Positions 5,819 to 33,434 of a DNA stretch of 64,000 nucleotides are shown piece after piece. How positions within the stretch are numbered: the first letter of the stretch is position 1; each line of letters begins with the position of its first letter. The stretch comes from Zygnema cylindricum (taxonomy: Eukaryota > Streptophyta > Zygnematophyceae > Zygnematales > Zygnemataceae). Below the pieces are notes generated by a model. That model was given only the letters and a program-made list of their open reading frames with translations. It made no database searches and was not told where the DNA came from. The position numbers were made by a program, and so were the translations under genes. The stretch covers positions 250,001-314,000 of the forward strand of contig JBBHKE010002683.1 in the NCBI GenBank assembly GCA_037447655.1, given 5' to 3'.

Positions 5819-5819
5819 T

Positions 5820-9080: not shown

Positions 9081-9119
9081 TTCGACCTCGTTTTTCGCAT
9101 CCAACTCCTCATCCAAAAG

Positions 9120-11660: not shown

Positions 11661-11875
11661 AACCAAAGTGGTGGTTCTTTTTTATTTATGGAATCTGGGG
11701 AAGACAAATTTCTTGGTGTCTCGTTGCTACCTTATGTATACAACATCCTCTCTGACGGAATTATTTGGCACTTCCACAGATATAGCCGAAGAAATCTAAC
11801 GATTCCCCATTTCGAAGCGGTGGGAAGAGGAATACAAGAATAGATTATTACTGGTGGCAAAATTGCGCACTATGA

Positions 11876-12512
11876 ATTTTAACTCTATTTTCAGGAATCA
11901 GTTCAGATTTAGACGTTATTCTAAAAACAGGATATTGGGTAGAGTCATATACAGCCGTGGAGATATCACCATAGGCACAGGCTGTCAGCAAACATCGCCT
12001 TCACCAACATCACACCCTATATCCTCAACAACTTCCAATGTCTACCTTTTCTAAAGCTCACCGGAGTCTTCCGCGGAATATAAAAAACATCCAGAAACCC
12101 CATCTAACTAGTTTGGAAAAAATAGATCTAGTGATGGCAAGATGGCCTTGTCAGGGATACTCCCTAGCGAGACAAGGCAGAGGGCATCAACACCCAGGAG
12201 CCGGAAATTTTATTGGATGATCAAATTAATCTCATGGATTCAACAACTCCAGGACACACCGGTGGGGTACGTTTTGGAGAATGTCCACCCACGAGATAAT
12301 AAACGGAAACACTTTGCGGACAGCTGGAATCAAATAACCCAAATTTTAGGAGCTCCCTTGGTTTTTGACGCCACCCTGATGGGATGAAGAGCACACAGAG
12401 TCAGGGCATATTAGACCAATATGATCGCGATTCAAGTTCTACGCCAGCTATTGGATGATCAAACCCCCAACCTGAACAATTCGGTGCAGCAAATACTTTG
12501 GGAAGGTAGAAT
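11876..12512 (+). pseudogene. Gypsy G1 cytosine DNA methyltransferase domain, N-terminal part
   Basis: C5-cytosine methyltransferase motifs are in order. Motif I is ILTLFSGISSDL (11876 on), which binds the S-adenosylmethionine methyl donor. Next is VESYTAVEIS (motif II acidic residue). Motif IV is ARWPCQGYSLA with the catalytic Cys at 12149-12151. Motif VI is VLENVHP (Glu-Asn-Val at 12277-12285). A motif VIII-like RAHRVRAY lies at about 12388. A frameshift falls between motifs IV and VI (near 12200), and in-frame stops occur at about 11975 and in motif VIII. Loss of Gly in motif I (GIS for GIG) and Arg for Gly before PCQ are also seen. The solo LTR at 12518 then splits the domain. Intact, it would methylate cytosine in DNA. 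Confidence 0.85.
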
Positions 12513-12517
12513 GGCCA

Positions 12518-13574
12518 TGTTGGTTTTTGGAAACCTTTAGTCCTCTCTATATCACATTACTATGCTGCCATGCTGCGCTGAATACATCGCAGCTATAGCA
12601 ACATGTGTGCGAAAGATATCTTGTTGCCATGCTGCGTTGGTCATGCCGCACCCATAGCTGCTTGTGTACTAGGTACTAAGTGTATTGGAACGTACGAAAT
12701 TGGACTTCAAGTGACGCGAAGAAATAAAGATGAAAGTATGATTTGCGTAAAAGGAAATGGACGGCGGATCGCGAAGCGATCCAACGTTAATCAACGCTAT
12801 CAAAATCGTATGTCGCACTACGAAACGTAATGCGACGGGTGACATTTGATGAAGTGGACCCCACCTGAACTACGGACGGCGTCGCTGTCAATTTGGTGAG
12901 GGAGGCGAAATCGCGTCCATCACATGATATTTATTTTGGACGGTCTTGATTCATTTGACGGAATTCGTAAAACTTGTAAATATTTAACAATGTTTTGTAC
13001 TATGTATTATTTATTAGTGTTGATCTCATGTACACTCACATTAATAAAGGTAGTTGATTGATTACGTACGGCTAGTATGCCTCTGTACAGTTAGTAGTAA
13101 GGTGTAGTGTATATTTGTATGACTTAGTCATTTTGAGACTTAGGAACTTTTTGGACAGAAACTGTTTTGCTCCATTTTGAGAATCTCATCTGAGAATTTC
13201 TCTCAGTTCTATTGGCAGAATTATCTGAAATTTTGCATGTGTGTTCCCCCTTATATTGGAAACATTGTGGAAAATTTGCAAACCTATTGTGTGTCTAATT
13301 TTCTTGGGGCTTCATTGTGAAGTTGGTCATATTTATCAAAGTTCTGGCAGGCTGTTTTTCTGCAACTTTGACTGGGTGTTGTGATTACTCTGTTTGGTAT
13401 TGTTATATGAAAATTAGTGGGAACACTAAGTGGCCTACGAACTATCTAGTTAAGTATTTTTAGCTTGGTTTGGTTAGCTTGTAGAAATCTGAGTGGAATC
13501 AAAAGTGGTTGTTTTGGGGTAGTCTGTGGTGCTTCCAAGGGTACATTCATGGTTGAAAATGGCTATGAACAACA
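12518..13574 (+). repeat. Solo LTR (TGTTG...CAACA family) inside the G1 DNMT
   Basis: It is bounded by TGTTGG and GAACAACA. The flanks give a 5-bp target duplication with one mismatch (GGCCA at 12513-12517, CGCCA at 13575-13579). G2 lacks the insertion at this point, which fixes the boundaries. It is related to the LTRs at 28360, 52352 and 57431/59712, and carries the conserved hairpin GGATCGC...GCGATCC at 12766-12782. No internal retrotransposon sequence remains, so it is probably the product of LTR-LTR recombination. Confidence 0.85.
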
Positions 13575-13900
13575 CGCCACACCTGTGACGCAACCCGACC
13601 GCTCCCCTTTCTTTCGTTGCAACAAACCAGATTCCCACAAAAAGCACTCCGGACATTGGTCTCTTTCCTTCACAATCACGCTTATCGGAAAAGGGTAGCG
13701 GGAATGATTTTTGACTGTAAGGCAAGAATCTAGACAAAACCGACAATTGCAGAACGCGAAGAAGCAATGGGATTTCATATAGGCACCACGCCAACACCAA
13801 GTATTTCAGCCCTTTAGAGGTGAAGCCTAATTGGGAAATGTATGGATTTGAATTCGATCACAAAAGTGCTCAAGGATGCACTCGCCTTTTCCAGCCTCAA
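13575..13900 (+). pseudogene. Gypsy G1 DNMT domain, C-terminal part
   Basis: This continues the domain after the solo LTR. It aligns with G2 from 24703 onward: RPLPF/RSPFF-like start, then the motif IX-X-like block TIAEREEAMG (about 13738-13772) and a C-terminal MDLNSITKVLKDALAFS. The Glu-Arg-Glu ... Met-Gly pattern corresponds to the ERE/MGF region near the C-terminus of many cytosine methyltransferases. There are stops around 13696 and 13730 and a frame change before the last block. Confidence 0.75.
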
Positions 13901-14209: not shown

Positions 14210-14960
14210 GACCTTGGGGGAGTTATTGGACCCTCAACAAAAAGCGTGGCTTTCCGAACTATTGGCCGAAAACAAGCAGGTGTTTTCAAATCAGAAACAC
14301 ATGTCGGTATCTACAAATGAACCCCTTTCCGAATCGATTTGATTGACAAGATAGCTACTGTTTGGCAGAAACAATATCCTCTCAACTTCAAGGAGAATGA
14401 ATTTATCACGGCTAAAGTCCAAACTTTGTTAGAAGCCAGATTGGTTCAGGAAAGTACAGCACTTCATCGGTTCGCCTCCTCGACAGTTTTCCCTCCCAAA
14501 AAAGACTCGTCCGTGAAAACTGTAGATTTTTGGATATGTGGAGATTATCTCATGCTAAACACTACCACCATTTCTAACCGGTATCCAATGCCGACCCCGG
14601 AACACATATTCGACTCCGTTGTTGGTGCCGCTATCTACTCCACTTTGTACATTAAAAACGGTTTCTACCAGATTGCCATGGAACTAAAGCACTGGGAAAG
14701 AACGGCCTTTTGGACAGGTTCTCGGCTTTATGAATGGATTTATATGCCATTCGGGCTTAAGAATGCGCCGGCCAAATTCTAACGGACCATAAACGAAGCA
14801 CTACGAGGAATCGATTGTGCCCGATATGATATAGATGATGTAATCATCTTCTCAAAGACCTTTGAAGAACACTTGGAGCATATCCAAATCGTTCTTCGGG
14901 ACCTTCAAGCTACATGCGTGAAATGTCACATGGGCAAAGGTATTTTAGGGGTATAGAAAA
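14210..14960 (+). pseudogene. Gypsy G1 reverse transcriptase
   Basis: The pre-RT block LLAENKQVFS is followed by ITAKVQTLLEARLVQ, VFPPKKDSS, CGDYLMLNTTTISNRYPMP, YSTLYIKNGFYQIAM and YMPFGLKNAPAKF, a standard Gypsy RT. The catalytic region at about 14824 reads YDIDDVIIF where G2 has CYIDDVIIF, so the Tyr before IDD is lost. Stops occur at 14780 and near 14955. Confidence 0.9.
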
Positions 14961-15834
14961 TCATTTACCTCAAAAATGAGGTGACTCTCGGGACTTTGGA
15001 TCCCCACATGGTCAAGGTGGAAGCCCTTAACGCTCTTCCCCTACCACAAGACATCTCGGCCCTTCGCACCTTTCATGGTCTAGCCAACTACTATCATCGG
15101 TTTATCCCTGATTCACTAGTCACACTCAGCCCCTCAACCAGCTATTGCAGAAGGACCAAGGATGGCAGTGGGCCGAAGAACAACAGATCGCTTTCCATTT
15201 CTTGAGGATGCTGTGAAGAAACACCCCATGCTCTGGATTCTAGATCAGTAGAGGCCTTTCCACACTTACATTGATAGGAGCAGGTTTGGATTGGGAGCGG
15301 TTTCAGCTCAGGTCGATGATGCCGGAGCTGAATATGTGGTGCCCTACCCCAGCCGGAGAAATAATAGAGCACAAGGGAATTATAGCAGTTACCACGGAAA
15401 GCTACTCGTTGTGGATTGGGCAATCCATCATTTCCGGCCTTATTTGCACGGGGTCCATTTCACCTTGATCATTAATCACCAAACTCTGAAATGGATCATT
15501 GAAAATAGTAAGTTAACCGGCAAACTCGCCAGATGGGTTCTTATCCTACAAGAATGTGATTTTGACAATGTTCATAGACCAGGGGAAATCCATGGGTATG
15601 CCGATGGACTTAGCAGAAATCCGAATCCCTCCACCATGGATTCTACCAAGGCTCGGCATGATGAGGACCCTAAAATCAGTTTTCGACTCATCCGAGCATC
15701 CTCAACTTTCATCTGGCTTCCCCAATTTGGGGGGGAATGGTCAACTTTTTCGGCCGACGTGGAGGGGCAGGCGCCCATAGGAGCCGGACGGAAGGATATA
15801 TGGAACGACCATGATGCTCTCCAATCTATCTAAT
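14961..15834 (+). pseudogene. Gypsy G1 RNase H
   Basis: The connection block TFHGLANYYHRFIP follows the RT. After frameshifts, VVDWAIHHFRPYLHGVHFTL, HQTLKWIIENSKLTGK and FDNVHRPGEIHGYADGLSR match the Gypsy RNase H tail with its H-x-G/D-x-ADGLSR signature. It would degrade the RNA strand during reverse transcription. It is damaged at about 15200-15290. Confidence 0.85.
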
Positions 15835-15939
15835 AGGGGTCGCCTCTTCCCCACTTGACTGGAATCCAATTATACTGAGTGCAGACCCAGATGGCTCCAT
15901 ATTAATAGGACAAAGGCCTTCTTCTCCGGAAATGGTCAG

Positions 15940-16993
15940 ACGGCACAAGGAAAGTGGTTCCTCCCCCCTCAGACCGAGAAACTCTGATATCCAATTTCCT
16001 TCAGCAATGTAAACATTTTGGGCAAAAGCGGACCACTTCACTTATTGCGAGCTCTCATTGGTTGCACATGTTGCAAACCCAAGTCAACAGAATTGTGCAA
16101 ACTTGCTCCTCGTGCGATCGAGTCAACGTAGCCTTTGACAAGAAAGGCGGAACACAACTTCATTCGCTTCTGATCTGGGGGATGTGTTTGGATCTTTTGG
16201 GACCTCTTTCGACCAGCAAGGGGGGAACCGTTTCATGCTGGTCATGATAGAACTTTTTTCCAACTAGATCAAATTGGTGGTTTTGCCACGGAAGGAGTCT
16301 AAGGCAATTACAGATGCATTTTTGCAAATGATTTTAGCGCAATTCGGGAAGCCTGCGGAAGTTCTAACGGACTAAGGCTCCGAATTTGCCGGAGAATTTT
16401 CCAACCTCTTAGAAAAATGCCTTGTCGACCATCGCTTGACAAGCCGTGACCACTCGCAAGCTAACAATTTGGCCAAAAGATGTGTACAGACAATGAAGCG
16501 GTCACAACAAAAATATGTAGTTGAATAAAATTTGGGGGAGTGGGACAAGAGGGTGCCTTCGATTGCTATTGGATACCGATTAAGCAGATTGGCTTCTCTC
16601 CACTCTTATAATCTTTATTTCATTTTATTCAGACAACATCCCATCCTGCCTAGGGCTGCATCGGCCCAAGAGGTGGTCCTCCCGGAGATGGATGACAAAG
16701 GAATAGTCGAAAAACTGATCGCCGACAGAGCCAAGATGTTTCACCGAGAGATGCCTCTCGCCATAAGAAATTTGCAGGTGCCTCAACACCGAGATTAGTT
16801 GTGGTATTCTCAACGTCAGAGCAGGAAATATTTGCCACGTCAGCGACGAATTATGCCAAGGGACTTGGTATATCGGATGCAACAAAATAAGGACACACAA
16901 GATATTTATGTCGGCCGAGTAATTTTGAAAGTGGTCGAAGTTTCCAATAAAAGGGTTCTTACATTGGAGGGAAAGGATGGTAGATTGAATTAG
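15940..16993 (+). pseudogene. Gypsy G1 integrase
   Basis: The zinc-binding part contains QTCSSCDRVN (about 16100-16130). The core carries DLLGPLSTSKGG (first Asp), VLTD-GSEFAGEFSN (second Asp, interrupted by a stop) and a region matching RTMKRSQQKYV. The C-terminal part includes FRQHPILPRAASAQ and GRVILKVVEVSNKRVLTLEG, similar to GPY-type tails. It inserts cDNA into host DNA when intact. Stops at 16264, 16373, 16526, 16796 and 16991 kill it. Confidence 0.87.
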
Positions 16994-17063: not shown

Positions 17064-17243
17064 TACTTTGCCATTCCTCCTTCGTGTTCATCAGCTTGGA
17101 ATCAGCCCTCCCAGCTGCACAACATACTGGTTTGCAATCAATATGGTCAGTGTAGGCATTCAGCTTGTCTCCCATCCTCTGGGGAGCCACGCTCTCTACC
17201 CTCAAGCACCTGGCTCTCTGGGAACTGCGAGTGGGGCAGGTAA
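17064..17243 (+). pseudogene. PHD-like zinc finger at the C-terminus of the G1 polyprotein
   Basis: Reading through to the TAA at 17241-17243, the frame contains PSCSSAWNQPS, then LVCNQYGQCRHSACLP, then STWLSGNCEWGR. Compared with G2 (CNQCGQCWHSTC and LCGN), the ancestral pattern is C-x3-C ... C-x2-C-x4-H-x2-C ... W-x-C-x2-C, which is the cross-brace spacing of PHD fingers apart from the first pair. Such fingers read histone H3 tails. Mutations here remove one Cys of the central pair, one of the first pair and one of the last. The position after integrase is where chromoviruses carry a chromodomain. Confidence 0.6.
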
Positions 17244-17270
17244 TTTTATGTCTTAGTCATGGTTGACTAA

Positions 17271-17283
17271 CAGGGGGGGAAAT
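17271..17283 (+). promoter_or_regulatory. Polypurine tract of G1
   Basis: AGGGGGGGAAAT stands directly before the LTR start TGGGATATC. The same arrangement recurs in G2 at 29547-29559. Confidence 0.75.
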
Positions 17284-18742
17284 TGGGATATCAACCAACT
17301 ACCAAGACCCCAAACCCTTTTCGCAACCAGGTGGGGGAAAGGAAGGGGGAGGGGATTCCTTTTGCCTTCCCATGCACTCATCCCTATTCCTTCTCGGGGT
17401 GTCTCCCCTATTTTTGCATGCATATCTAAAGAAAGGATGTGGGCACCCGTGGGCAAGATCATTTTTTGTGGGGAGCACTCAAATTTGGGGGTTATTTGCA
17501 GGAATCCTATGCCGACAACTCCAGGCTAGGTGCCCTTCTCTTATGTTTTTCAAGCACGCTTGACAGCTGTCAAGCTCGTGTGCTTTTTAGGCACACCTTT
17601 ATATCCTTAAGGATTTACGGGCCCTTTCTCCCTTGTAGGATCCCCAGAGTACGGAGGAGTGAGTGAAATAAGCCTTATCAACTCCTTGGATTCTCTAAAC
17701 TGAGCGCAACGCACTTTAGGTCGCGCCAAACGAAGGCCGGACGACTAAGTTATTCCGCCTCAAAGATTGCAAGTCCGTTACATGGGATCAATGGCCATGA
17801 GCCCTTTTGAAGGGTACATTGTGGATCGCCACGTAACTTTCCAGATTGTCGTCTAGATAATGATGTTAGCTGTCCGTAGAAATTCATTTTAGGTTAATCT
17901 GACTCCCGGTCAATTAATTACCTTAAGTCAAAGTCTGGAACTTTCGTGTCATTTTCAGTACTTTGTCTTATAATAGTGGACTAAATAATTATTTCCAGCT
18001 GCGGATTTAGCGGTAGTCACAAGCATAACTTTTTGCCCATAGTGCAGTATAGATTAATTTGTCAAATGTCAATTTAATTACACTTGCTTGCCGCTGATTG
18101 GTTAATTGCATAGCTTTGACTTTTGGGCATGAGATTTTTACAAACTTCTAATTTATAAGGCTCTTGGGGCCGAAGGAGACAGGTTGTTTATTAGTACTGT
18201 CTCATTTGAAAACCCTCAAAAATTTCAACAAACCTTCTTTTGCATAATCTTTGTTATGTTTTTACTCTATTGCCATCTTGGTTTTGGATCTGTCTTTTGT
18301 GGGAATCACACTTCGGGCGGGTAGTTGGCACTATTTGCTTTTTGGGTGATTTTTGGACTTTTTGTTGTTTCAAACCGAGAAGAGTCTGGTCGGTTCCGAG
18401 CTGCGGACACTGAAGGTTGAAGGAGCTCCATCCTTGTTCAATATACTATCGGGAGAGGGGTTGCATTTTTCTCATTGTCATCGTTGATTACTGGGGTATG
18501 TTAAGCTAACTTTGTTTTTGTTTTGCATTTTCTATCTTTTACTCTTTTTTTCTGGGGCAAGGTGATATTGTTAATCTTGGAAAGCCAATCATAGTTATCT
18601 ATGTATTTCTACGTGGTAGTGCACTTTAGTCTTTGACTGGAGTTCCTTTTTGTTTTGGAGTCATCGTTGCGGAATAAAATGAAACCCCTTGTTTAATAAA
18701 GTGGGTTTTGAGGGAACAAGTGTGATAGACTTCCCGTAGACA
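17284..18742 (+). repeat. 3' LTR of G1
   Basis: A 1459-bp LTR, TGGGATATC to GTAGACA, matching 29560-31007 throughout. It contains a perfect 18-bp palindrome at 17558-17575 (GCTTGACAGCTGTCAAGC), the centre of which coincides with the breakpoints of three truncated LTR copies nearby. It is followed by 8 bp and then the truncated 5' LTR of G2. Confidence 0.85.
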
Positions 18743-18750
18743 ATGCAAAT

Positions 18751-18991
18751 TCGGATATCAGCCAGCTACTAAGACACCAAACCCTTTCCGTGGCCAAATG
18801 TGGGAAAAGAAGGGGGAGGGGATTCCTTTCGCCTTCCCATGCACTCATCCCTATGCCCTGTCCGGGTGTCTCCCCTATTTTTGCATGCATATCTAAGAAA
18901 GGGATGTGGGCAGCCGTGGGCATGATTATTTTTGTGGGAAGCACTTGCACTTGGGGGCTATTTGCAAAAACTTATGCCAACAACTCCGGGC
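18751..18991 (+). repeat. Truncated 5' LTR of G2, first piece
   Basis: Begins TCGGATATCAGCC and runs parallel to the start of the 3' LTR of G1. Copia B interrupts it at 18992. The remainder is at 23111-23154, where the LTR stops at GCTCGACA and internal sequence follows. Confidence 0.8.
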
Positions 18992-20125
18992 TGTTGATAT
19001 TTGAGTATTTTCTAGCTCTGTATTAGGATAGAAAAGAGCAGAGGCAGTCTGCCTCTAATTTCCATCTCCAAGCCCCCACACTTGTCATAGTCACTGAAGG
19101 TTGGATAAGGAGCTAGAGCCATTGCTGTGCAAGCTCACTAGAGAAGACAAGGGGTGAATTAGGTAGATTTACCAAAAGGTACCTGACACACCCAAGAATT
19201 GATCGTAGTACTTGCAGTCCATCTAGTCAACCGCAGCCGATAGCTTTGTCCGTTTAGTTTAAGACTAGTGTTAAGGTGTATTGAGTTTGATACGTATTTA
19301 AGATATACACGTAGGTGTTTCCATTTAAATTGATTACAGTTTATTGGGGATAAAAAAAGTTGTACTATTAGTATTGGACAAAACAAATAGTACAGACATT
19401 TGTTTCGACGGTCCGTATTAAATACCGATATAAATCAGACGCCCATGGTTAGCGTCGACTTTGCGGAAAGGTTAATTTGGCGGTTTGTGGACTCCGCCAC
19501 TCCGGATGACACGTGGCAACATTATACGGGTTTACGAAATCTCCGGAACGGAAGACAACAAATCTGAATGTGACAAATGTCACATTTTGGCGACGTCATA
19601 CACTGTCCGTATAGAAAGTACTCCGGCATCTGTACCTTATTGTACGGTACAGTCCTGTGATTAGTCAGTACCTTAGTACTAGGGGGTTTAGAGAGGGATT
19701 TTGGACTTCAAATATTTTGGGTAGAGCCGCCTCTCCCAGAAAGCATCTTGTATAAAAGGTAAACTTGGGCCAGCCATAACTATCAAGTCAATTGACCAAA
19801 TTCAGTGATTTTTTCTGCTCCAAACTCAAAGGAGTCCACGCTACTCAGGGGTGTAGTCGGTTAGAATGTTTGCATGCGAGGGTAGCTGCATTTCTAAGGA
19901 AAATCAAAGTGGGAAATATTATCCTAAAATTATATTCTAACTTTTGATACTGTAAGTGAAACTGAGCACACAGAAAGTCTTATTTCACAGGGGTGAAGCT
20001 ATAATGGTGTTTTGATTGTCAAAGGGTCAATCATTTGGGTTTATATAAACTTTGAATCGGCACTATCTAGATAAACTTCTTTTGATCTGCGAATTTTGTG
20101 TGGCAATGGAGCCCATAGAGTTTCA
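18992..20125 (+). repeat. 5' LTR of copia B
   Basis: 1134 bp, TGTTGATATTTGAG to GAGTTTCA, matching 21975-23110. The same family forms the minus-strand LTRs at 42411-43590 and 50696-51775. Confidence 0.9.
20042..20048 (+). promoter_or_regulatory. TATA box in copia B 5' LTR
   Basis: TATATAA lies 77 bp before the LTR end, with the identical motif at 23027-23033 in the 3' LTR. If it sets the start site, R plus U5 is only about 50 nt and the leader before the gag ATG is very short. Confidence 0.5.
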
Positions 20126-21160
20126 AGTTATGGGCCCACCATTTGAGGTGCCTATGTTCGATGGAATGGACTTCACTTATTGGGAGTTTAGGATGGAGGG
20201 ATTGCTTTTCGAAAAGCACTTGTGGGGAATTCTTTCGGGACAAGTGAGGTTTCCGCCACCGGGCTTTGGAGGAACTAACTATGGAGAATCATGTGGGGCT
20301 TTCCATAGTACCAACTGGAGTAATGATGCAACGGAAGGTGAAGGGAAAATCATTACCATGGAAGGGGAAAAAGGGGAGAAGGATAAAGGGACACCAATGG
20401 TGAGGGGAGCTAGGCTCTCAGCTACGGTTCCACTTGTGGGGATTATAACTGAACCAAAAAACTGAAGAAAATGACAGGAAAATTAGGGAATATAAAAACA
20501 TAATAGCAAAACATATTATATTTAGATATGTGTCTAAGTCCATAGCTATCATTCTTTTAAATCTAACCAAGTCTTCGGAAACTTGGGAAACACTAATTCA
20601 GATATATACGAGTGAAACTATACAGAGGCAGCAGTTAGTAACAGAAGAAATAGAAGCCTATGAAGATGGTAGCATGATAGAGTTTTGCAATGATATTGTT
20701 GCGTTATATGTTGAGCTTGCTAGTGCGGGATATGTAGAATCTGAGGAGAGAAAGATTGATACACTAATCATAAACCTTCCAAATGAGTACAAAGATATTA
20801 TTTACCGTAAGCAGGGATAGGATGGCTCCTCATGGACTTGGAGCATTACCATGGGGATACTTCTTGTGAGGGAAAGCACTTTGGAGCTTCGTCGGGGAAG
20901 TAACAGGGTGACTACATTTACAGCTAGTGGTGACTTGCGGAAGGGTGATGTGAGGAATGGCGGTGACGAGCGGAAGCGTGATAAGAGGAAGAATGACAAA
21001 GGTAAACCTTATCAAAACTTCGGTGGAAAAGGAGGGAGAGGAAAAGAAAAGGGAGCTTTCAAAAAAGGGGTTTGTTTTGCTTGTAGGAAACCGGATCACT
21101 ATATGGAGGAGTGTCCTTTTTTGGAAGAACTTAAAAGTTGGTATGTGAATGAAGAGGAAT
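20106..21160 (+). pseudogene. Copia B gag
   Basis: Gag protein of the same type as copia A and C: MGPPFEVPMFDGMDFTYWEF at the start, then HLWGILSGQV, a helical part with MIEFCNDIVALYVELASAG, and a knuckle at about 21078-21120 reading CFACRKPDHYMEEC (C-x2-C-x4-H-x4-C, all zinc ligands present). Stops at 20463 and 20818 and a frame change divide it. The tail beyond the knuckle is rich in Glu and Lys. Apart from these lesions it is the best kept coding stretch of the element. Confidence 0.85.
20126..20142 (+). promoter_or_regulatory. Primer-binding site of copia B overlapping the gag ATG
   Basis: AGTTATGGGCCCACCAT follows the LTR end directly. The stretch GTTATGGGCCCACCA is the full complement of the anticodon arm of plant initiator tRNA-Met as I recall it. 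The enclosed ATG (20130-20132) is in frame with gag; an upstream in-frame ATG also exists at 20106 inside the LTR. Confidence 0.75.
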
Positions 21161-21162
21161 AA

Positions 21163-21960
21163 GGGGAAGAGGAGAAAGAGGATGAAGAAATATTGGAGCT
21201 TCTTAACATCGGTAGAATGGAGAAGAGAGAAAAGTACACTGAAATTCCACGAAGGCAACAGTTTACTTTTGGAGGTATAAGAGAAGTAAAGAGAGAGGAG
21301 GTACTTGAGGATGTCAAGTAGTGTAGAGTGGATGACTTAGAAATGAGAAAGTCAGATTTAGGATACATAAGTGAAAATGGGAAAGATAAAATTAATGATA
21401 ATAATTTTATAGATATTTTGAAAACAAAAAAATGGTCGGAAAGGGAGACTTCAACGGATTCCGAGGAAAGGGGAGAAGTAAAACTAGAAGGGGTTTTAAA
21501 GGATAAGGGAAGAGAAATATTTATTGGGAATAAATTTAGAAAGTGAGAGTGGAAAGATCTCCATGGGAGATAGTGAGGAAAGATCATTTTTTGGGGGTAA
21601 TGGGTTTGACATCACTAAAGGAAGTGATGGTATTTATGAAGGTGTGCTTGTAAAAGGGTTAGCATATGGGTGTATGTTGCACATTGGAAATGGGCTGGCT
21701 GTATGGATCGCAAGAGGGAAATCGGTTTGTGTGTTGATGGAAAAGTGATGAGGTGGATAAAATCTTTGCTCGGATTTATGAAAAGTGGGATGTAAAATAA
21801 AATGTGTGATGTAAATATTATTTCAGTTCATCTAATGCATTGTGTTAAATAAGAGAGTATTTTCTTAAGCTTTATGAAAGGAAAAGGAAAAAGGAAAAAG
21901 AAAAAAAAAGGGAGGGGGTGTTTGTTTATTTGTTTGTGGGAGTTGAAAGGAAATAGACTA
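21163..21960 (+). other. Copia B internal tail without recognised domains
   Basis: Acidic, Glu/Lys-rich open pieces (about 21175-21315 and 21328-21546), then short frames ending near 21748, then a purine-rich, non-coding run to the polypurine tract. No DSG protease motif, integrase or RT residue pattern is found on either strand. A deleted or replaced pol region is the simplest reading. Confidence 0.6.
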
Positions 21961-21962
21961 GA

Positions 21963-21974
21963 AAATAAAGGGAG
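21963..21974 (+). promoter_or_regulatory. Polypurine tract of copia B
   Basis: AAATAAAGGGAG immediately precedes the 3' LTR start TGTTGATATT. Confidence 0.7.
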
Positions 21975-23110
21975 TGTTGATATTTAAGTATTTTCTAGCT
22001 CTGTATTAAGATAAAGAAGAGCAAAGGCAATCTACCTCTAACTCCCATCTCCAAGCCCCCACACTTGTCCTAGTCACTAAAGGCTGGATAAGGAGTTAGA
22101 GACATGGCTACCTAAGCTCACTAGAGAATACAACGGTTGAATTAGGAAGATTTACCAAAAGGTACCTGACAGACCCAAGAATTGATCCTGGTACCTGCCG
22201 TCCGTCTAGTCAACCGCAGCCGGTAGTTTTGTTTGTTTAATCTAGGACTACTACTAACGTGTATTGGGTTTCATACGTGTTTAAATATGTACACGTAGGT
22301 TTTTCCATTTAACTTGATTATGGTTTATTGGGCATAGAAACAGCACTACTATTAGTACCGGACGAAACAAATATAACGTACATTTGTTTCGACAGTCCGT
22401 ATTAAATACCGGTATAAATCGGACGGCCATGGTTAGCGCCGGCTTCGCGGAAAGGACAATTTGGCGGTTTGCGGACACTGCCACTCCGGATGACACGTGG
22501 CAACATCATACGGGTTTACAAAATCTCGGGAACGGAAGACAACAAATCTGAATGTGACAGATGTCACATTATGGCGACGTCATACACTGTCCGAACAGAA
22601 AGTACTCCGACATCTGTACCTTATTGTATAGTACAGTCCTGTGAATCCTTAGTACCTTAGTACTAGGGGGTTTAAATAGGGGTTTAGGACTTAAAATATT
22701 TTGGGTAGAGCCGCCTCTCCTAGAGAGCATCTTGTATAAAAGGTAAACTTTGGCCAACCATAACTATCAACTCAGTTAACCAAATTCACTGATTCTTTCT
22801 GCTCCAGACTCAAGGGAGTCCAGGCTACACAGGGGTGTAGTCGGTTAGAGTGTTTGCCTGCCAGGGTAGATGCATTTCTAAGGGAAAGTCAAAGTGGGAA
22901 ATGTTATCCTAAACTCATATTCTAACTTTTCATTTTGTAAGTGAAATTGAGCAAACAGAAAGTCTTATTTCACAAGGGTGATGCTGTAATGGGGTGCTGA
23001 TTGTCAAAGGGTTTATCATTTGGGTTTATATAAACTTAGAGTCGACACTATCTAGATTAGCTTCTTTGGATCAGTGAATTATGTGTGGCAATGGAGCCCA
23101 TAGAGTTTCA
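21975..23110 (+). repeat. 3' LTR of copia B
   Basis: 1136 bp, a partner of 18992-20125 with the same termini and TATA box. Gypsy LTR sequence resumes after it at CAAGCTAGGTGCCC. Confidence 0.9.
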
Positions 23111-23394
23111 CAAGCTAGGTGCCCTTCTCTTATGTTTTTGAGGCACGCTCGACACCTCACTCATGTTAAGACTCTATCATCCTCCAACAACCTGCCCGAA
23201 TAAATTCTAATACAAGCATTAGGTGAAGAAATCCACTTCGGAAAAAAGTAGGGTCGACATGGCCACTTCGCCAACCGCATTCCTTTAGTCCATAGATCCG
23301 AAAACCCCTTTAGTGGATAGGGCCTACAATGCTTTATCAATGGCTCTTATACTAAACCAAACAAGTAACTTCAAGCTCAATGGGTATGGAGGAT
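23111..23394 (+). pseudogene. G2 LTR remnant joined to gag-protease linker
   Basis: 23111-23154 is the continuation of the Gypsy LTR up to GCTCGACA. From there the sequence equals G1 from about position 4570. The joint lies in a short shared stretch (CACCTCA in G1). The linker is frameshifted but aligns with G1 across the copia A insertion point, giving the uninterrupted form CCCCTTTAGTGGATAGGGCC. Confidence 0.7.
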
Positions 23395-23720
23395 GCCAAG
23401 ACGCTGTGGTCGTCACTGGAGCGCTCCCGAGTCTCATCATCACCTCTGCTTTGTAAAAAATGCCCAAGGAACTCTAGCCTGAAATCTACCCAAGCAATAT
23501 CTACTTAAGCACGATAAGCAGCGGCATTGAACCTGTCCATAAGATTATCAAAGGCATGGAAATCGAGTTTTCTGATGACAAAGGCCAACAGGTGAAAATT
23601 GAGCTTCCCTTCTTAGTGGTGGAAGGGACTCAATTTGAAATTATGTTAGGAATGGCTAATTAGACCCGACTAAATATGAGAGTGAGCGTGTGGAAAGAAT
23701 AATGTACAGTTCGGGACCTC
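23395..23720 (+). pseudogene. Gypsy G2 aspartic protease
   Basis: Retropepsin-like: YGGCQDAVVVTGALPSLI, where the active-site Asp of DTGA is replaced by Val, and FEIMLGMAN near the end. Stops at about 23455 and 23661. The domain is followed by conserved MRVSVWK as in G1. Confidence 0.7.
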
Positions 23721-24075
23721 AGAAATCGCGAAGGAACCAAAGTAGTGGTTCCTTTGGATTTATGGAATCGGGAGAAGAAAAATGTCCCGGTGTCTTGTTG
23801 CTACGCGATCTATACTACATCTTCTTCTTGACGGAATTGTTTGGCAGTTCCACAGATATAGCCGAAGAATTCTGGCAGTTCCCCATTTGAAAGCGGTAGA
23901 AAGAGGAATACAATAATAGATTTTTACTGGTGGCGAAACTCTAGCAGGGAGTGGATCACGCTTTCTTGGCTTTATTAATAAAGGAAGTCGTTTCTACACC
24001 CCTGTCTGACCTGGTCCGGTAACGAGGAATTCAACCAATATGTGGTGTCATTGACAATCCCAAATTTTTTGACTA
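23721..24075 (+). pseudogene. Gypsy G2 protease-DNMT linker
   Basis: Partly conserved with G1 (SRRNQSSGSF, SSTDIAEE). About 23941-24060 has no counterpart in G1, so G1 has lost it or G2 gained it. No domain is recognised. Confidence 0.45.
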
Positions 24076-25010
24076 CGAATTTTATCTCTATTTTTTGGAA
24101 TCAGTTCCAATTTAGAAGTTGTTCTAAGAACAGGATATCGGGTAGAATCATATACAGCCGTGGAGATATCACAAGAGGCACGAAATGTCAGCGAACACCG
24201 CCTTAACCAACTTCACACCCTATAACCTCAGCAGCTTCCAATGTCTGCCTTTTCCAAAGCTCACCAGAGTCTTCAGCATAATATAGAAAACATCCTGAAA
24301 CTCCATCTAACAAGTTTGGAAAAAAGAGATTTAGTGGTGGCAGGATGGCCTTGTCAGAGATACTCCTTAGCGGGACAAGGCAGAGGGCTTCAAGACCGCA
24401 GAGCCGGACATTTATTGGATGATCAAATTAATTTTTGGATTTAACAACTCCAGGACACACCAGTAGGGTACGTTTTGGAGAATGTCCACCCAGAAGATGA
24501 TAAACGAAAACATGTTGCGGATAGTTGGAATCAAATAACCCAAATTTTAGGAGCTCCCTTGGTTTTCAACGCCGCCCAGATGGGATCAAGGACCAATATG
24601 ATCTTGATTCCAGTTCTTAGGCAGCTATTGGATAAGCAGACCCCCGACCCGAAAAATTTGGTGTAGCGGATACTTTGCGAAGGTAGGATGGCCACACTTG
24701 TGAAGCGACCCGACCGCTCCCCTTTCTTTTGGTGTAACAAAAGGAGATTCCCACGAAAAGCACTCCCAACATTGGTCTTTTTCCCTCATAGTCACCCTTA
24801 TCCGAAAGGGACAGCGAAAATAATTTTTGATAGTAAGGCAGGAATCTGGACAACACCGACAATTGCAGAACGGGAAGAAGCAATGGGAATTCATAAAGGC
24901 ACCACGGAAGCACCAGGTATTTATACCTTCAACCTAATTGGCAAAGTATGGATTTGAATTCAATCACAAGGGTGCTCAAGCATGCACTCGCCTTTTCCAC
25001 CCTCATGTCC
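24076..25010 (+). pseudogene. Gypsy G2 cytosine DNA methyltransferase domain
   Basis: About 310 residues, the normal size of a C5-methyltransferase catalytic core. One frame runs from 24076 to 24957 with stops at 24223, 24442 and 24664. Motif I is ILSLFFGISSNLEVVLRTG, binding the methyl donor. Motif II is VESYTAVEIS. Motif IV is VVAGWPCQRYSLAGQ, catalytic Cys at 24352-24354. Motif VI is VLENVHP at 24475-24492. The motif VIII region lacks about six residues that G1 keeps (RAHRVRAY). The IX-X region is TIAEREEAMG at 24856-24888. A frame change leads to MDLNSITRVLKHALAFS. The conserved YWTN-type context of motif VIII recalls DNMT3/DRM-like enzymes, whereas GWPCQ recalls DNMT1/bacterial types; the subfamily is left open. 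Confidence 0.87.
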
Positions 25011-25330: not shown

Positions 25331-26070
25331 GTTGAAGGCACGGCTTTCCGATAATGTTGGCCAAAACAAGTAGATGTTCTCATGGTTAGGAACAGGTTTC
25401 GGTATCTACAAGCGAACCCCTTTTCGAATCAATTTGATCGACGAGACTGCAAATGTTTGTCAAAAGTAATATCCTATCAGTTTCAAGGAGAAGGAATTCA
25501 TCACGGCTAAAGTCCAAACTTTGGTGGAAGCCAGATTTGATCAAGAAAATACAACACTTCATGGGTTTGCCTCCACGATAGTTCTCCCTCCCAAGAAGGA
25601 CTCGTCCGGGAAAACTGTAGATTTCCAAATGTGTGGAGATTATCGCATGCTAAACAGTACCACCATTTCTGACCGATATCTGATGCCAACCCCGGAAGAC
25701 ATATTCAACTCCCTTGTTGGTGCCACTATCTACTCCACTCTGGACATGAAAAATGTTTTTTACCGAATTGTCATGGAACCAACGCACCGGGAAAGAACAA
25801 CCTTTTGGGCAGGTTCTCGACTTTATGAACTGATTTACATTCCATTCAGGCTTAAGAATGCGCCGGCCAAATTCAAATCGGCCATGGACGAAGCACTCCG
25901 ATGAATCGATTGTGCGCGGTGCTATATTGATGATGTGATCATCTTCTCAAAGACCTTTGAATAACACTTGGAGCATATCGTGATCGTCCTCCGGGCCTTT
26001 CAAGCTGCGAGCTTGAAATGTCACCCGGGCAAAGGTATTTTTGGGGTAGAGAAAATCATTTACCTCTGAC
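25331..26070 (+). pseudogene. Gypsy G2 reverse transcriptase
   Basis: KVQTLVEARFDQENTTLHGF, VLPPKKDSSGKTVDF, CGDYRMLNSTTISDRY, YSTLDMKNVFYRIVM, YIPFRLKNAPAKF and the catalytic CYIDDVIIFSK at about 25920. Both catalytic aspartates are present. Stops at 25390, 25467, 25902 and 25962 break it. Confidence 0.9.
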
Positions 26071-26822
26071 ATGAGGTGACTTCCAGGACTTTCGGTCCCC
26101 ACATGGTCAAGGTGGCAGCCCATGACGCTCTTCCCCCACCGTAGGATATCTCAACCCTACGCACCTTTCTGGGTCTAGCCAACTACTATCGACGGTTTAT
26201 CCCCGAGTTCAATAGTCACGCTCAGCCCCTCAACTAGCTGTTGCGGAATGACCAAGGATGGCGGTGGGCCCAAAAACAACAGATCCCTTTTGAGTTCTTG
26301 AAGGATGCTCTAAAGGAGCACCCCGTGCTCTGGATGCCTGATCAGCAGAGGGCTTTCCACCTTTGCATTGATTGGAGCAGGTTTGGATTGGGAGCGGTTT
26401 TGGCTCAAGTCGATGATGTTGGAGTTGAATATATGGTGGCCTACGCTAGCTGGAACAACAATAGAGCATAAGGGAATTATAGCAGTTACCACAGAGAGCT
26501 ACTCGCAGCGGTTTGGGTAATCCAACATTTCCGGCCTTATTTGTACAAGGTCCATATCACCCTGATCATTGATCACCAACCCCAGAAATGGATCATGGAA
26601 TATAGTAAGTTAACGGACATACTCGCCAGATGGATTCTTATCCCGCGTGAATGTGATTTCAACATTGTTCATAGAGTAGGGGAAATCCATGGGAATGCCG
26701 ATGGACTTATCAAGAATCCCAATCCCTCCACCATGAATTCTACCAAGGCTCGGCATTATGAGGACCTTGAAATCAGTCTGGGACTCATTCAGGTATCCTC
26801 GCCTTTCATCTATCTTCCCTAA
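26071..26822 (+). pseudogene. Gypsy G2 RNase H
   Basis: TFLGLANYYRRFIPEFNSHA connects it to the RT. The domain has LCIDWSRFGLGAVLAQ (the first catalytic Asp), YHRELLAAVWVIQHFRPYL (Glu) and HRVGEIHGNADGL. Stops at 26236, 26469 and 26820. Confidence 0.88.
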
Positions 26823-27029
26823 TCTGGGGGGGAACTGTCAACATTTTCAGCCAACGTGGAGTGGCACGCGCTCATAGGTGCCGGGCGTAAGGATATACGG
26901 AACGACCTTGATGCTCTTCAATGTATCTAACAAAGGTCGTCTCTTCCCCACTTGACTAAATCTAATTATCCCGAGTGCAAACTCGGATGGCTGCGTATGA
27001 TTGGGATTGAGGCATTCTCCTCTGGTCAT

Positions 27030-28094
27030 GGTTAGATGGCACGAGGAAAGTGGTTCCTCCCCCCTTAGACCGTGAAACTTTGATTTCCAATCTCCATCAA
27101 CAATGTGGACAATTCGGGCAAAAGCGCACCACTTCCCTTGTTGCGGGCTCTTAATGGTGGCACGCGTTGCGGACCCAAGTGAACAAAATTGTGTAGACTT
27201 GCTCCTCATGCGATTAAGTCAATGCTGCCTTTGACAAAAAGGCGGAACTCAACTTCATTCCCTTCCGATCCGGGGGATGTTTTATCGACGGTCTTTCGAT
27301 CTTTTGGGACCTTTTTCTGACCAGCAAGCGAGGGAACCGTTTTGTGCTGGTCATAATAGAACATTTTTCCAAGTGGATTGAGTTGGTTGTTTTGCCCCGA
27401 AAGGAGTCCAAGGCAATTGCAAATGCCTTTTTGCAAAGGGTTTTAGCGCAATTCGGGGCGCCTGCGAAAGTTGTAACGGACAAAGGCTCCGAATTTGCCA
27501 GAGAATTTTCCAACCTCTTCGAAAAATGCCTTGTCGACCATCGCTTAACAAGCCGTGACCACCCGCACGCTGACGGTTAACCGAAAGGTGCGTACAGACA
27601 GTGAAGCGGTCACTACAAAAATATATAGTTGAAGAAGATTTGGGGGGGTGGGACAAGAGGTTGTCTTGGATTGCTATGGGATACCGATTAAGCACACTGG
27701 CTTCTCTCCACTCGTATAGTCCTTACTTCATTTTATTCGGACAGCATCTCATCCTGCCATTGGCTGCATCGGCCCAAGCGGTGGTCCCCTCGGAGATGGA
27801 TGACAAGAGAACAGTCAAAAAACTGATCGCTGACAGAGCCAAGATATTTCACGGAGAGATGCCTCTCACCATGGGGAATTTGCAAGCAGCTCAACACCGA
27901 GATCAGTTGTGGTATTCTCAACCCCGGAGCGGGAATTATTTGCCACGTCAACAACGATTTATGCCGGGGGACTTTGTATATCAGATACAACAAAAGAAGG
28001 ACAAGCTGGATATTTTTGTGTCGGGCGAGTAATTTTGAAAGTGGTCGAAGTTTCCAATAAATGGGTTCTTACATTGGAGGGAAAGGATGGTTGA
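27030..28094 (+). pseudogene. Gypsy G2 integrase
   Basis: The zinc-binding region is at 27060-27215. The core has RFVLVIIEHFSKWIELVVLP (Asp replaced at the FSD position), VVTDKGSEFAREFSNLFEKC with the second catalytic Asp, and HRLTSRDHPHADG. The C-terminal region shows SPYFILFGQHLILPLAA, FMPGDFVYQI and RVILKVVEVSNKWVLTLEG. The tail is in the same frame (starting 27909) as the PHD-like finger further on, separated only by stops. Confidence 0.87.
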
Positions 28095-28214: not shown

Positions 28215-28359
28215 AATCCTTCTTCCTGTTCATCAGCTTGCAATCCGCCCTCCCAGCTCCAAGACATATTGGTCTGCAATCAGTGTGGTCAATGTTGGCA
28301 TTCAACCTGTCTCCCATCCTGTTGGGAGCCACGCTCTTTACCCTCCAGCACCTGGCTCT
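28215..28359 (+). pseudogene. PHD-like zinc finger of G2 (interrupted by an LTR)
   Basis: NPSSCSSACNPPSQ, then LVCNQCGQCWHSTCLPSC and PSSTWL, in frame with the integrase tail. The LTR at 28360 cuts it just before the last Cys pair. The residues CGNY-EWGE follow after the insertion (29490 on), where G1 has SGNC-EWGR. The composite ancestral ligand set is C-x3-C, C-x2-C, H-x2-C, C-x2-C. All central ligands are intact here, unlike in G1. The fold is inferred from spacing only, and other cross-brace zinc fingers remain possible. Confidence 0.6.
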
Positions 28360-29487: not shown

Positions 29488-29546
29488 GCTTTGTGGGAAC
29501 TACGAATGGGGCGAGTAATTTTATGTCTTAGTCATGGTTGACTAAG

Positions 29547-29559
29547 AGGGGGGGGAAAT
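29547..29559 (+). promoter_or_regulatory. Polypurine tract of G2
   Basis: AGGGGGGGGAAAT directly before the 3' LTR. Confidence 0.75.
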
Positions 29560-31007
29560 TGGGATATCAGCCAACTACCGAGACCCCAAACCCTTTCCCC
29601 GGCCAGGTGGGGGAAAGGAAGGGGGAGGGGATTCCTTTTGCTTTCAAATGCACTCATCTCTAATCCATGTTGGGGTATCTCCCTTATATTTACATGAATA
29701 TATAAAGAAGGGATGTGGGCAGCCGTGGGCAAAATCATTTTTTGTGGGGAGCACTCACATTTGGGGGTTATTTGCAGGAATCCTATGCCGACGACTCCGG
29801 GCTGGGTGCCCTTCTCTTATGTTTTTCAGGCACGCTCGACAGCTGTCAAGCTCGTGTGCTTTTCAGGCACACCTTTATATCCTTAAGGATTTAGGGTCCC
29901 TTTCTTCCTTGTACGGTCCCCAGAGTACGGAGGAGTGAGTGAACTAAGCTTGATCAGCTCTTTCGATTCTCTAAACTGAGCGGAACGCACTTTACGTTGC
30001 GCCTAACGAAGGTCGGACGACTAAGTGATTCTGCCTCAAAGATTGCAAGTTTATTACATGGGATCAATGGCCACGAGCCCTTTTGAAGGGTACATTGTGG
30101 ATCGCCACGTAACTTTCCAGATTGTGATCTAGATAATTTTGTTAGCTATCCGTAGAAATTCATTTTAGGTTAAGCTGACTCCCGTTCAATTAATTACCTT
30201 AGGTCAAAGTTTGGCACTTCCTTGTCATTTTCAGTACTTTGTCTTATAATAGTGCACTAAATAATTACTTCCAGCTGCGGATTTAGCGGCAGTCACAAAC
30301 ATAACTTTTTGCCCTAAGTGCAGTACGGATTAATTTGTCATATGTCAGTTCAATTACACTTGCTTGCCATTGATTGGTTAATACCATAGCTTTGACTTTT
30401 GGGCTTGAGATTTGGATAACCTTTTAATGTATAAGGCACTTGGGGCCGAAGGAGACAGGTTGCTTTTCAGTAGTGTCTTCTGTGAAAATCCTCAAAAATT
30501 CCAACAAAATTCCTTTGGAGAATATTTGTCTTGTTTTGACTATATTGCCATCTTGGCTTTGGATCTGTTTTTTGAGGGAATCACATTCCGGGCGTGTAGT
30601 TGGCACTATTAGCTTTTTAGGTGAATTTTTGACTTTTTGCTGTTTGAAACCGAGAAGATTCTAGTCGGTTCCGAGCTGCGCACACCGGAGGTTGAAGGAG
30701 CTCCATCCTTGTTCACGATACTATCGGTGAGGGGTCGCCTTTTTCTCATTGTCATCGTTGAATTTTGGGGTATGTTAAGCTAACTTCTTTTTTTTTTACT
30801 TTTTCTATCTTTTATTCTCTTTTCTGGGGCAAGGTGATATTGTTAAACGTGGAAAGCCAATCATATTTATCTATATATTTCTATGTGGTAGTGCACTTAT
30901 TTCTTCGTCTGGAGTTCCTTTTTGTTTTGGAGTGACCGTTCCAAAGTGAACTGTTGATCAGGACAGTGGGTTTTGAGGGAACAAGTGTGATAGACTTCAT
31001 GTAGACA
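29560..31007 (+). repeat. 3' LTR of G2
   Basis: 1448 bp, TGGGATATC to GTAGACA, parallel to 17284-18742. It is followed by TAGCACAGAAGT and then by another LTR start at 31020. Confidence 0.85.
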
Positions 31008-31019
31008 TAGCACAGAAGT

Positions 31020-31298
31020 TGGGATATCTACCAAATACCGAGACCCCAAACCCTTTCCCCGGCCAGGTGGGGGTAAGGAACGGGGAGGGGATTCCTTTCG
31101 CCTTCCCATGCACTCATCCCTATTCCCTATGTGGGTGTCTCCCCTATTTTTGCATGCATATATAAGGGATGTGGGCAGTCGTGGACATGATCATTTTTTG
31201 TGGGAAGCACTTGCATTTAGGGATTATTTGCAGGACTCCTATGCTGATGACTCCGGTTTGGGTGCCCTTCTCTTATGTTTTTTAGGCACGTTTGACAG
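31020..31298 (+). repeat. Truncated Gypsy LTR
   Basis: First 279 bp of the family LTR, ending at GCACGTTTGACAG, the centre of the LTR palindrome. The G2 5' LTR is cut at the same point. It joins without a gap to the inverted fragment 31299-32482. Confidence 0.8.
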
Positions 31299-32482
31299 CC
31301 TCCCAATCTATGGTGACAGGTCCGGCCCCCGTCGTAGCCACCCCTTGAAATTTAAGCTTGTTAACCAATTCATGAGCACTGCTCAATACCCCTTTTAGAT
31401 CACCTATAACTACACCTAGCGCCTCTGGATTTGTATTTTTGGGTCGCCGTAGCCCTCTGGAAGGGCGAAAAGGCAGGGCTTTGGGAGAGGGTTTCTCTAT
31501 GTTTGTAACCGGTGCCTCCGGGTGTTTGGGTTCGGATCACCATAGCCCTCTGGAAAGGCGAACCGGTGGTGCTGTTAGAGAAGGTCCCAAGGTTGAGGAT
31601 GAAACAGGAGGTGGATTTGTTTCCTCTTTGGGAATAGGAGCGAAAATCCCCGTGTCACAATGGTCGAAACTCTTCCCCTTCTAAGGATCTTGCGATTCCC
31701 TCCTGATAGTTCTTGCTAGTTCATTCTCTTTGACGAGACCGGTAGCTGGTGTGTCCCCTTTACTACCCGCTAGTAGTGGGGTCTTGAAGAAAAATTGTTG
31801 AGGGCGAGGAGTAGGAGCCCTCCTGGGTCAGTCCTGTTCCGAGTGTGAAAAACTCCTCTTAGAGGAACAGCTTAAAATTTCCACTACCCCTCCCACCGGT
31901 CGAACCACTAGATCTCGATTAGTCTAAAATTCAAAGCTATACAAGGAGCCAATGAGCAGAAACCAAATCGTATTGAACTGACATAAGACAAAGTAAGCCG
32001 TACTACACTTAGGGCAAAAAGTTATGCTTCCAATTGCGGCTAGATCCACGGCCAAAAGTTAAAATTCGTTCCATTCTTATAAGACAAAGTACTGAAAATT
32101 ACGCAGAAACGCCAAACTTTGACCTGATGTAATTAATGGACTTAGAGTCAGTTGGAACGTGAACTGAATTCCTATCAACAGCTAACACCAAAATCTAGAA
32201 ACAATCCGAAAAGGTACTTGGCGTTCCACAATGTACCCTTAACTAGGTCTGGTAGCAACTGGTCACATGTAACAGAATTGTAATCTTTAAAATGGAATAA
32301 CTTTGTCGTTCGGCCTCTGTTAGGCGCGAAAAAAAGTGCGTTCCGCTTAGTCTAGGTAAAAACAGAGTCTTTTCCGGCTTGGTGTATTCCCTCTTCCGTA
32401 CTGTGATAGCCGTATGGGGTAGAATGAGGCTTGAAAATCCTCGGTAAATAAAGGTGTGCCGAAAACGCACACGAGCTTGACA
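31299..32482 (-). mobile_element. Inverted, internally deleted Gypsy fragment G3
   Basis: On the minus strand it starts at 32482 with LTR sequence beginning at the palindrome centre (TGTCAAGCTCGTG). It continues for about 560 bp and then jumps to gag-region sequence equal to G1 about 743-1320. The two parts meet near 31918. The LTR part is clearly more diverged from G1/G2 than those are from each other. No protein remains. Confidence 0.8.
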
Positions 32483-33431: not shown

Positions 33432-33434
33432 CTT

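Follow-up and report, generated by a model that had tools for sequence, protein, structure and literature searches.

DNMT3-type methyltransferases are already known from retrotransposons of streptophytes and dinoflagellates (PMC5890265, PMC12344493). As described, KnitGypsy-Dnmt3 of Klebsormidium nitens is a Gypsy element that holds a Dnmt3 domain in its Pol polyprotein, has repeats in the order A-coding-B-A-B and keeps its methyltransferase under purifying selection, with Ka/Ks < 0.2 (de Mendoza et al. 2018, PMC5890265). For DIRS elements the same authors proposed methylation of the element's own cDNA, along with alternatives (PMC5890265). Retrotransposons with adenine or cytosine methylases have been reported from Ty3/Gypsy and DIRS clades, in green algae and charophytes among others (PMC6338049), and retrotransposon DNMT3 from long terminal repeat (LTR) Copia and DIRS families (PMC12344493). 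Here we analysed 64,000 nucleotides of Zygnema cylindricum (GenBank assembly GCA_037447655.1, contig JBBHKE010002683.1, positions 250,001 to 314,000, forward strand), referred to below as the window, and confirmed that a Ty3/Gypsy retrotransposon in it carries a C5-cytosine methyltransferase domain between its protease and its reverse transcriptase (RT).

A methyltransferase domain between protease and reverse transcriptase

The element is present twice in the window, as copy A (about 1-23157), which is interrupted by a 1-kb insert and by two other elements, one Copia-like and one gag-only, and as copy B (about 23158-31293), whose 5' side is cut. Profiles built from relatives revealed the same domain succession in both copies, namely protease, methyltransferase, RT, RNase H, integrase and a PHD-finger remnant (Table 1). 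RT, RNase H and a DDE integrase are thus all present, with the integrase last, as in Ty3/Gypsy elements, and these profiles support the position in a Gypsy element proposed by a first-pass annotation made from the sequence alone. The motifs listed by that annotation were all read in copy B in the frame of 24073, in the order ILSLFFGIS, VESYTAVEIS, GWPCQ, VLENV and TIAEREEAMG, which are motifs I, II, IV, VI and IX of C5-methyltransferases. The catalytic Cys codon of GWPCQ lies at 24352, as had been claimed, and motif IV of this copy reads PCQ. The motif VIII block RAHRVRAY, said to be kept in the other copy, is indeed present in copy A and is gone from copy B through an 8-residue gap. Motif X (SMDLNS) was recognized by eye near 24945 of copy B in a different frame, and the domain ends slightly beyond the piece tested.

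Three lines of evidence rule out chance motifs. Over 24073-24954, the frame of 24073 holds three stops, compared with 16 in each of the two remaining forward frames and 16, 14 and 7 in the reverse frames. Pfam DNA_methylase (PF00145) matched the 294-residue piece of copy B, with X at the stops, at E 2.7e-7 (30.8 bits, cut-off 22), so that the lack of a methylase profile match, one of two outcomes that the annotation had named as refuting, did not occur. A profile from the methyltransferase domains of 13 relatives matched copy B at 24079-24921 with an independent E-value (iE) of 1.6e-71 (230 bits), a value from a small search confined to the window frames. The same relatives' profile located the second methyltransferase, at 11873-13880 in copy A, in line with the claim of two separate copies. 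The insert of about 1 kb that splits it has its left edge between 12517 and 12525; the profile match extends to 12525.

When the family profile was compared with C5-methyltransferase classes, DNMT3A scored 89 bits and the best non-DNMT3 class 38 bits, and the predicted fold of the methyltransferase of one relative also preferred DNMT3; both comparisons took in only classes with solved structures, and among these the similarity to DNMT3 was the highest. PCN in motif IV marks the Dnmt3 class. Here motif IV is PCQ or ECQ in all 22 readable relatives. By sequence comparison the methyltransferase is therefore Dnmt3-like, a label chosen because motif IV is not PCN.

Relatives, common descent and selection

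Relatives were collected in three protein searches. The first gave a single match, from Closterium. The second was padded to reach polyproteins and scored the 7,985 candidates sharing most words; it gave 24 matches, of which 9 are from Closterium sp. NIES-53 or NIES-54, 1 is from Haematococcus lacustris and the others come from jgi, ena and lgn, presumably metagenomes. The third took RT and integrase pieces as queries and, at a threshold of E 1e-10, added 12 matches, for a total of 37 proteins. No Klebsormidium protein is among the relatives listed, an absence made uninformative by length limits and word sharing.

The methyltransferase profile matched 27 of the 37 relatives, which fall into two domain orders: protease (PR), methyltransferase (DNMT) and RT, as in the window (type 1), and RT, RNase H (RH), DNMT and integrase (INT) (type 2). 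PR-DNMT-RT was found within one protein in 5/37, PR followed by DNMT in 11/37 and DNMT before RT in 7/37. The order RT-RH-DNMT was found in 10/37, 7 of which continue to the integrase, and DNMT-INT with no RT before it in 2/37. One relative, P0030 (2358 residues), carries PR-DNMT-RT-RH-INT-PHD in a single protein, while two of the 37 have neither the methyltransferase nor the set from RT to PHD. The Closterium models P0006, P0008, P0009 and P0010 also contain Copia-type Pfam domains and look mixed, and the Haematococcus gene model P0025 is without RT.

A further element of this kind was found in a record of 4933 bases filed as an uncultured cyanobacterium (CADCWO010000201.1, hereafter L022), a filing under a cyanobacterial metagenome-assembled genome that we take for a binning error. 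It holds gag-PR-DNMT in a frame at 3-3251, then an in-frame TAG CAA TCA, and then RT-RNase H in a frame at 3255-4931. UAG-CAR-YYA serves tobacco mosaic virus and certain other plant viruses as a readthrough motif (PMC3542737), and the stop in L022 is, in this one case, a possible readthrough site. No readthrough site was noticed in the window copies, and P0026 and P0030 are uninterrupted by a stop.

The RT and DNMT trees both grouped the copies as ((A,B),C), where C is a third copy described below, with P0026 next (supports 99/91, 100/100 and 96/92 for RT, and 97/94, 100/98 and 100/99 for DNMT); rows A and C were partial in these trees (34 to 47% of columns). A 100/99 branch in the RT tree sets type 2 (10 rows) apart, and in the DNMT tree a 100/98 branch splits the PR-DNMT type, with A, B, C and L022, from type 2 plus P0025. 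P0003, P0004 and P0010 were too short for both RT trees, and P0032 and P0034 were left out of the second; P0003, P0004, P0006, P0008, P0009 and P0010 were left out of the DNMT trees as partial. A DNMT tree rooted on DNMT3A was not used, its root lying on a very long branch within type 2. We claim agreement of the trees only at the nodes around the window copies, short of the DNMT root and the deeper RT branches; at these nodes the two trees show that the methyltransferase was co-inherited with the RT. The simplest reading of the two orders would be one capture followed by a move within the polyprotein.

Judged from their reading frames, both window copies are dead and no longer able to methylate, because copy B has three stops, a lost motif VIII block and a frame change before motif X, and copy A is broken by stops, by frame changes and by its insert of about 1 kb. 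The two are 84 to 87% identical, and no codon-position bias between them was significant in any of five regions (p 0.09 to 0.68). When the borders were shifted slightly, RT gave p 0.053 and dN/dS 0.42, and the N-terminal part of the methyltransferase p 0.51 and dN/dS 0.79. This is roughly the pattern of copies decaying with little constraint, and A and B alone give no clear sign of constraint on the methyltransferase.

A search of eleven 10-kb stretches of the same contig yielded one further methyltransferase-bearing copy, C, which is full-length (12,440 bp), lies outside the window, just downstream of it, and spans the stretches L034 (from 9275), L042 and L036 (to 1714). Its methyltransferase (L042 5731-6672) sits between protease (5044-5400) and RT (7193-7759) and also has a frame change within the domain. 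Between C and B, the methyltransferase differs at codon positions 1/2/3 by 0.30/0.20/0.60 (p 1.4e-14), and a third-position excess was likewise observed in RT (p 8.2e-16), RNase H (p 2.2e-8) and integrase (p 3e-22). Copies A and C gave the same pattern in the two regions tested (p 3.3e-8 and 3.1e-18). The proportion of synonymous differences between C and B (pS) is 0.75 to 0.79, and dN/dS is not given for C against A or B because synonymous change is saturated; the nonsynonymous proportion (pN) is 0.247 in the methyltransferase and 0.124 in RT. The third-position excess indicates that selection kept the methyltransferase, which, on this codon evidence, was plainly constrained while the C and B lineages diverged, and less so than the RT.

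Possible roles of the enzyme

Cytosine methylation is usually directed at retrotransposons; a widespread clade in which selection maintains the elements' own methyltransferase would show that an element can gain from producing methylation itself. Related elements keep the methyltransferase in seemingly working order, which suggests that the element marks its own DNA. We consider it probable that the Dnmt3-type enzyme borne in the polyprotein methylates the element's own double-stranded cDNA, so that a new copy would arrive methylated. A Ty3/Gypsy family would long ago have taken a Dnmt3-type methyltransferase into its polyprotein. The enzyme, released from the polyprotein or acting within it inside the particle, would add 5-methylcytosine de novo, probably at CG, to the finished double-stranded cDNA before or at integration, and the new copy, already methylated, would then pass for silent DNA that is already resident. 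At the site of insertion, the PHD finger may recognize histone H3. The catalytic activity, the CG target, the cDNA substrate, the benefit to the element and the role of the PHD finger are all features that we infer. The cDNA is favoured as the substrate for two reasons: in P0026 and P0030, the nearest relatives, a single polyprotein holds both the enzyme and RT, and in yeast the domains of SymbioDIRS methylate CG (PMC5890265).

Alternatively, the methyltransferase could act on host chromatin at the insertion site, by way of the integrase and the PHD finger, and silence the neighbourhood after integration, which would hide the copy or limit harm to the host. The PHD finger matched behind the integrase in 17 of the 37 relatives, with its remnant in the window, and the placement of the methyltransferase beside the integrase in the type 2 and DNMT-INT relatives are in favour of such a role. 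However, in the window lineage the methyltransferase precedes RT and is distant from the integrase, and we regard action at the insertion site as unlikely. The two domain orders, the matching trees and the PHD finger together provide a comparative set for asking whether cDNA or the insertion site is the substrate.

Several observations weigh against methylation of the element's own cDNA. The KnitGypsy domain gave no methylation in yeast, a result that its authors call inconclusive (PMC5890265). In 15 of the 22 readable relatives the residue preceding the catalytic Cys is Glu and not, as is usual, Pro; P0007 (not among the 13 aligned domains) is without the motif VIII stretch, like copy B, and the methyltransferase evolves faster than RT. 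Moreover, 8 of the 37 relatives have RT-RNase H-integrase-PHD without a methyltransferase in the same protein, and therefore the enzyme may not always be needed, although an upstream frame could hold the domain. CpG depletion was considered as a footprint of self-methylation and rejected as not specific, since neighbouring elements are at least as depleted: the CpG observed/expected ratio is 0.61-0.69 in the coding parts of A and B and 0.57 and 0.60 in their repeats, while two neighbouring elements that showed no methyltransferase have 0.51 and 0.52; the stretch at 53-57 kb stands at 0.78 and the whole window at 0.88. Repeats in the window would appear to be methylated in general, the methyltransferase-bearing element being no exception. 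As a separate observation, the ratio reaches 1.26 at 33000-42000, against 0.5-0.7 in the window retroelements; this stretch is probably unmethylated and perhaps genic.

The yeast result, the unusual Glu, the missing motif VIII of P0007 and the faster evolution would equally suit a domain that is a structural or nucleic-acid-binding part, serving particle assembly, RT support or RNA, and not a working methyltransferase. Nevertheless, the catalytic Cys, the motif VI Glu and the motif VIII Arg are kept in 13 of the 13 aligned domains of distant relatives and would be needless for binding alone, which makes a purely structural part unlikely. A bacterial or viral origin of the methyltransferase, in place of a eukaryotic Dnmt3, is suggested by motif IV, as PCQ/ECQ resembles the PCQ of M.HhaI while DNMT3A has PCN. 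The whole-domain profile and the fold prefer DNMT3, however, and 23 of 24 viral or prokaryote-filed loci (21 viral, 3 genome) reached at most 60 bits with the transposon-domain profile; the 24th, at 390 bits, is L022, itself such a transposon. We hold an origin of this kind to be quite unlikely. It has also been speculated that retrotransposon-borne methylases defend the host cell against DNA viruses, which would favour the element too (PMC6338049), but an enzyme made at particle level together with RT would meet cDNA more readily, and such a defence seems very improbable here. Capture of a host pseudogene at a late stage in the two window copies alone, the other outcome that the annotation had named as undoing its claim, or motifs arising there by chance, would fit the dead state of both copies and the lack of significant codon-position bias between them but is refuted by the domain in 27 of the 37 relatives, including ones with long open frames, by the third copy with its evidence of selection before decay, and by the matching trees.

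Terminal repeats, other features and known systems

Copy C has the order A1-coding-B1-A2-B2, in which A1 and A2 are 95.9% identical over 1183 columns and B1 and B2 93.9% over 196. This DIRS-like arrangement, A-coding-B-A-B, is full in copy C, whereas copies A and B hold its 3' side and a fragment D of a further copy holds the 5' terminus, where unrelated sequence precedes the TGTCAAG start. Repeat A1 of copy A extends upstream of the window into L041 9823-10000, where it is cut short. Two identical full LTRs at both ends were not found, copy C having A1 at its 5' end and B1-A2-B2 at its 3' end; the Gypsy assignment therefore follows the coding domains, the practice of the 2018 paper, and not LTR structure. 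The integrase is of the DDE type (Pfam rve in copy B, P0007, P0012, P0013 and P0022), in place of the tyrosine recombinase of DIRS elements. A purine tract precedes B1. The outer ends of copy C are TGTCAAG and CTTGACA (TG...CA) with TGGA on both flanks, a possible 4-bp target duplication, for which a single 4-bp match is weak. At the B1-A2 junction of copies A, B and C, the ends meet head to head around GC, as CTTGACA-GC-TGTCAAG or CTCGACA-GC-TGTCAAG. Fragment D abuts the end of copy B and has a piece of the gag region attached to part of its A repeat.

Found together with a DDE integrase, these repeats suggest that integration follows an unusual route. The element could be read as an ordinary LTR element whose LTR is B-A, the integrated form being what a two-LTR circle opened inside one LTR would give. 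Opening at the internal junction would explain the A1-coding-B1-A2-B2 repeats, the TG...CA ends and the target duplication together. We tentatively propose, with reservations that outweigh our confidence, an old Ty3/Gypsy clade of streptophyte and chlorophyte algae that would carry a chromatin writer and a reader (the Dnmt3-like enzyme and the PHD finger), would have shifted the writer to another place in the polyprotein at least once, and would integrate via a two-LTR circle opened at the internal near-palindromic junction (CTYGACA-GC-TGTCAAG), not at LTR ends; in some members the enzyme would lie before a readthrough stop and be made with Gag.

Table 1 Features of element copies A and B and of fragment D in the window.
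Feature	Position	Strand	Evidence
Copy A, 3' end of repeat A1, then coding region, no repeat B (right edge approximate)	1..143	+	81% to ends of A2
LTR element inserted in copy A, Copia-like by eye	4752..11226	-	Repeats 4752-5806 / 10173-11226, 87%; minus-strand Copia-like frames
Copy A aspartic protease region	11323..11646	+	Relatives' profile iE 4.1e-6, 16.3 bits
Copy A methyltransferase, N-terminal and middle parts, two frames	11873..12525 (11873-12208, 12190-12525)	+	tblastn; relatives' profile 87 + 76 bits
Insert of about 1 kb splitting copy A methyltransferase	12526..13575	+	A/B DNA alignment breaks at 12517, resumes at 13576
Copy A methyltransferase, C-terminal part with motifs IX-X	13593..13880	+	Relatives' profile 74 bits
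Copy A RT	14360..14929	+	Family profile 201 bits
Copy A RNase H	15183..15557	+	Family profile 126 bits
Copy A integrase, core and C-terminal part	15879..16960	+	Profiles 80, 114, 111 bits
Copy A weak PHD-finger remnant	17103..17228	+	Relatives' profile iE 0.015, 4.7 bits; stray match elsewhere 3.6 bits
Copy A repeat B1 behind purine-rich tract (edges approximate)	17270..17561	+	
Copy A repeat A2	17562..18745	+	
Copy A repeat B2, first part	18746..18991	+	Rest about 23118-23157, split by gag-only element
Gag-only LTR element inserted in repeat B2 of copy A	18992..23117	+	Repeats 18992-20125 / 21975-23110, 88%; B2 resumes behind
Copy B aspartic protease region	23397..23750	+	Relatives' profile iE 1.5e-5, 14.5 bits
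Copy B Dnmt3-type methyltransferase, decayed	24079..24995	+	Pfam PF00145; relatives' profile; motif X by eye
Copy B RT	25458..26027	+	Family profile 207 bits; Pfam RVT_1 E 2.2e-5, under cut-off, stop-free piece 25470-25901
Copy B RNase H	26241..26648	+	148 bits; Pfam RT_RNaseH_2 2.5e-15, RT_RNaseH 9.5e-14 (two stop-free pieces)
Copy B integrase, core and C-terminal part	26972..28023	+	Pfam rve 2.1e-11; profiles 207 + 127 bits
Copy B PHD-finger remnant 3' of integrase	28233..28358	+	Pfam PHD E 0.0027, 18.1 bits, cut-off 24; relatives' profile iE 1.2e-6
Copy B repeats B1-A2-B2 (edges approximate)	29545..31293	+	87% to copy A 17213-18989
Fragment D of further copy	31299..32482	-	A1 starts TGTCAAG at 32482, no B before

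The protease of copy B is detected only by the relatives' profile, no Pfam protease being matched in the single stop-free piece tested. The gag-only element encodes a Copia-type gag (Pfam Retrotran_gag_2 1.6e-10) and a weak CCHC knuckle, with no further domain seen, and is apparently non-autonomous. Elsewhere in the window, a 39-base unit is repeated in tandem (93.5 copies, 73% matches) over 43591-47235, in an array flanked by two repeats related to the LTR of the gag-only element. A 1.3-kb stretch is present in two copies (57431-58737 and 59712-61019) that are 99% identical, unlike the surrounding old repeats. The 188-residue frame at 35330-35893 gave no useful Pfam match, and Rfam and tRNA searches gave 0 matches each.

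The first-pass annotation had left open whether this family is the charophyte one described in 2018 or a new capture, and the comparison narrows the choice. Compared with the published description of KnitGypsy-Dnmt3, the window element shares with it the LTR Gypsy domain set, a Dnmt3-related, non-rearranged methyltransferase in Pol, DIRS-like repeats and, as far as the third-position excess goes, selection on the domain. The main text of PMC5890265 makes no mention of PHD, Closterium, Haematococcus or readthrough, and its single passage on target-site duplications concerns SymbioLINE; relative to that text, the two domain orders, the duplication-like repeat and the internal B-A junction come from the present analysis. 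In the literature searched on retrotransposon-borne Dnmt3 and on PHD fingers in such elements, taken partly as titles and the starts of abstracts, we saw no report of a PHD finger, a second domain order, Closterium or Haematococcus members, or a terminal structure with target duplication.

SymbioDIRS-Dnmt3 of dinoflagellates, as described, has in common with the window element the Dnmt3 domain in Pol, two domain orders and split repeats, but it has a tyrosine recombinase of the DIRS type, whereas the window element has a DDE integrase with Gypsy-type RT and RNase H. The catalytic domains of host DNMT3A and DNMT3B give the best profile and fold match and share the non-rearranged motif order; they differ in having PCN in motif IV, where the element has PCQ or ECQ, and the element's domain belongs to a retrotransposon polyprotein that has a PHD finger in another part. 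Chromoviruses, as they are described, likewise carry a chromatin-reader module at the integrase end, which is a chromodomain in their case and a PHD finger, accompanied by a methyltransferase, in the window element.
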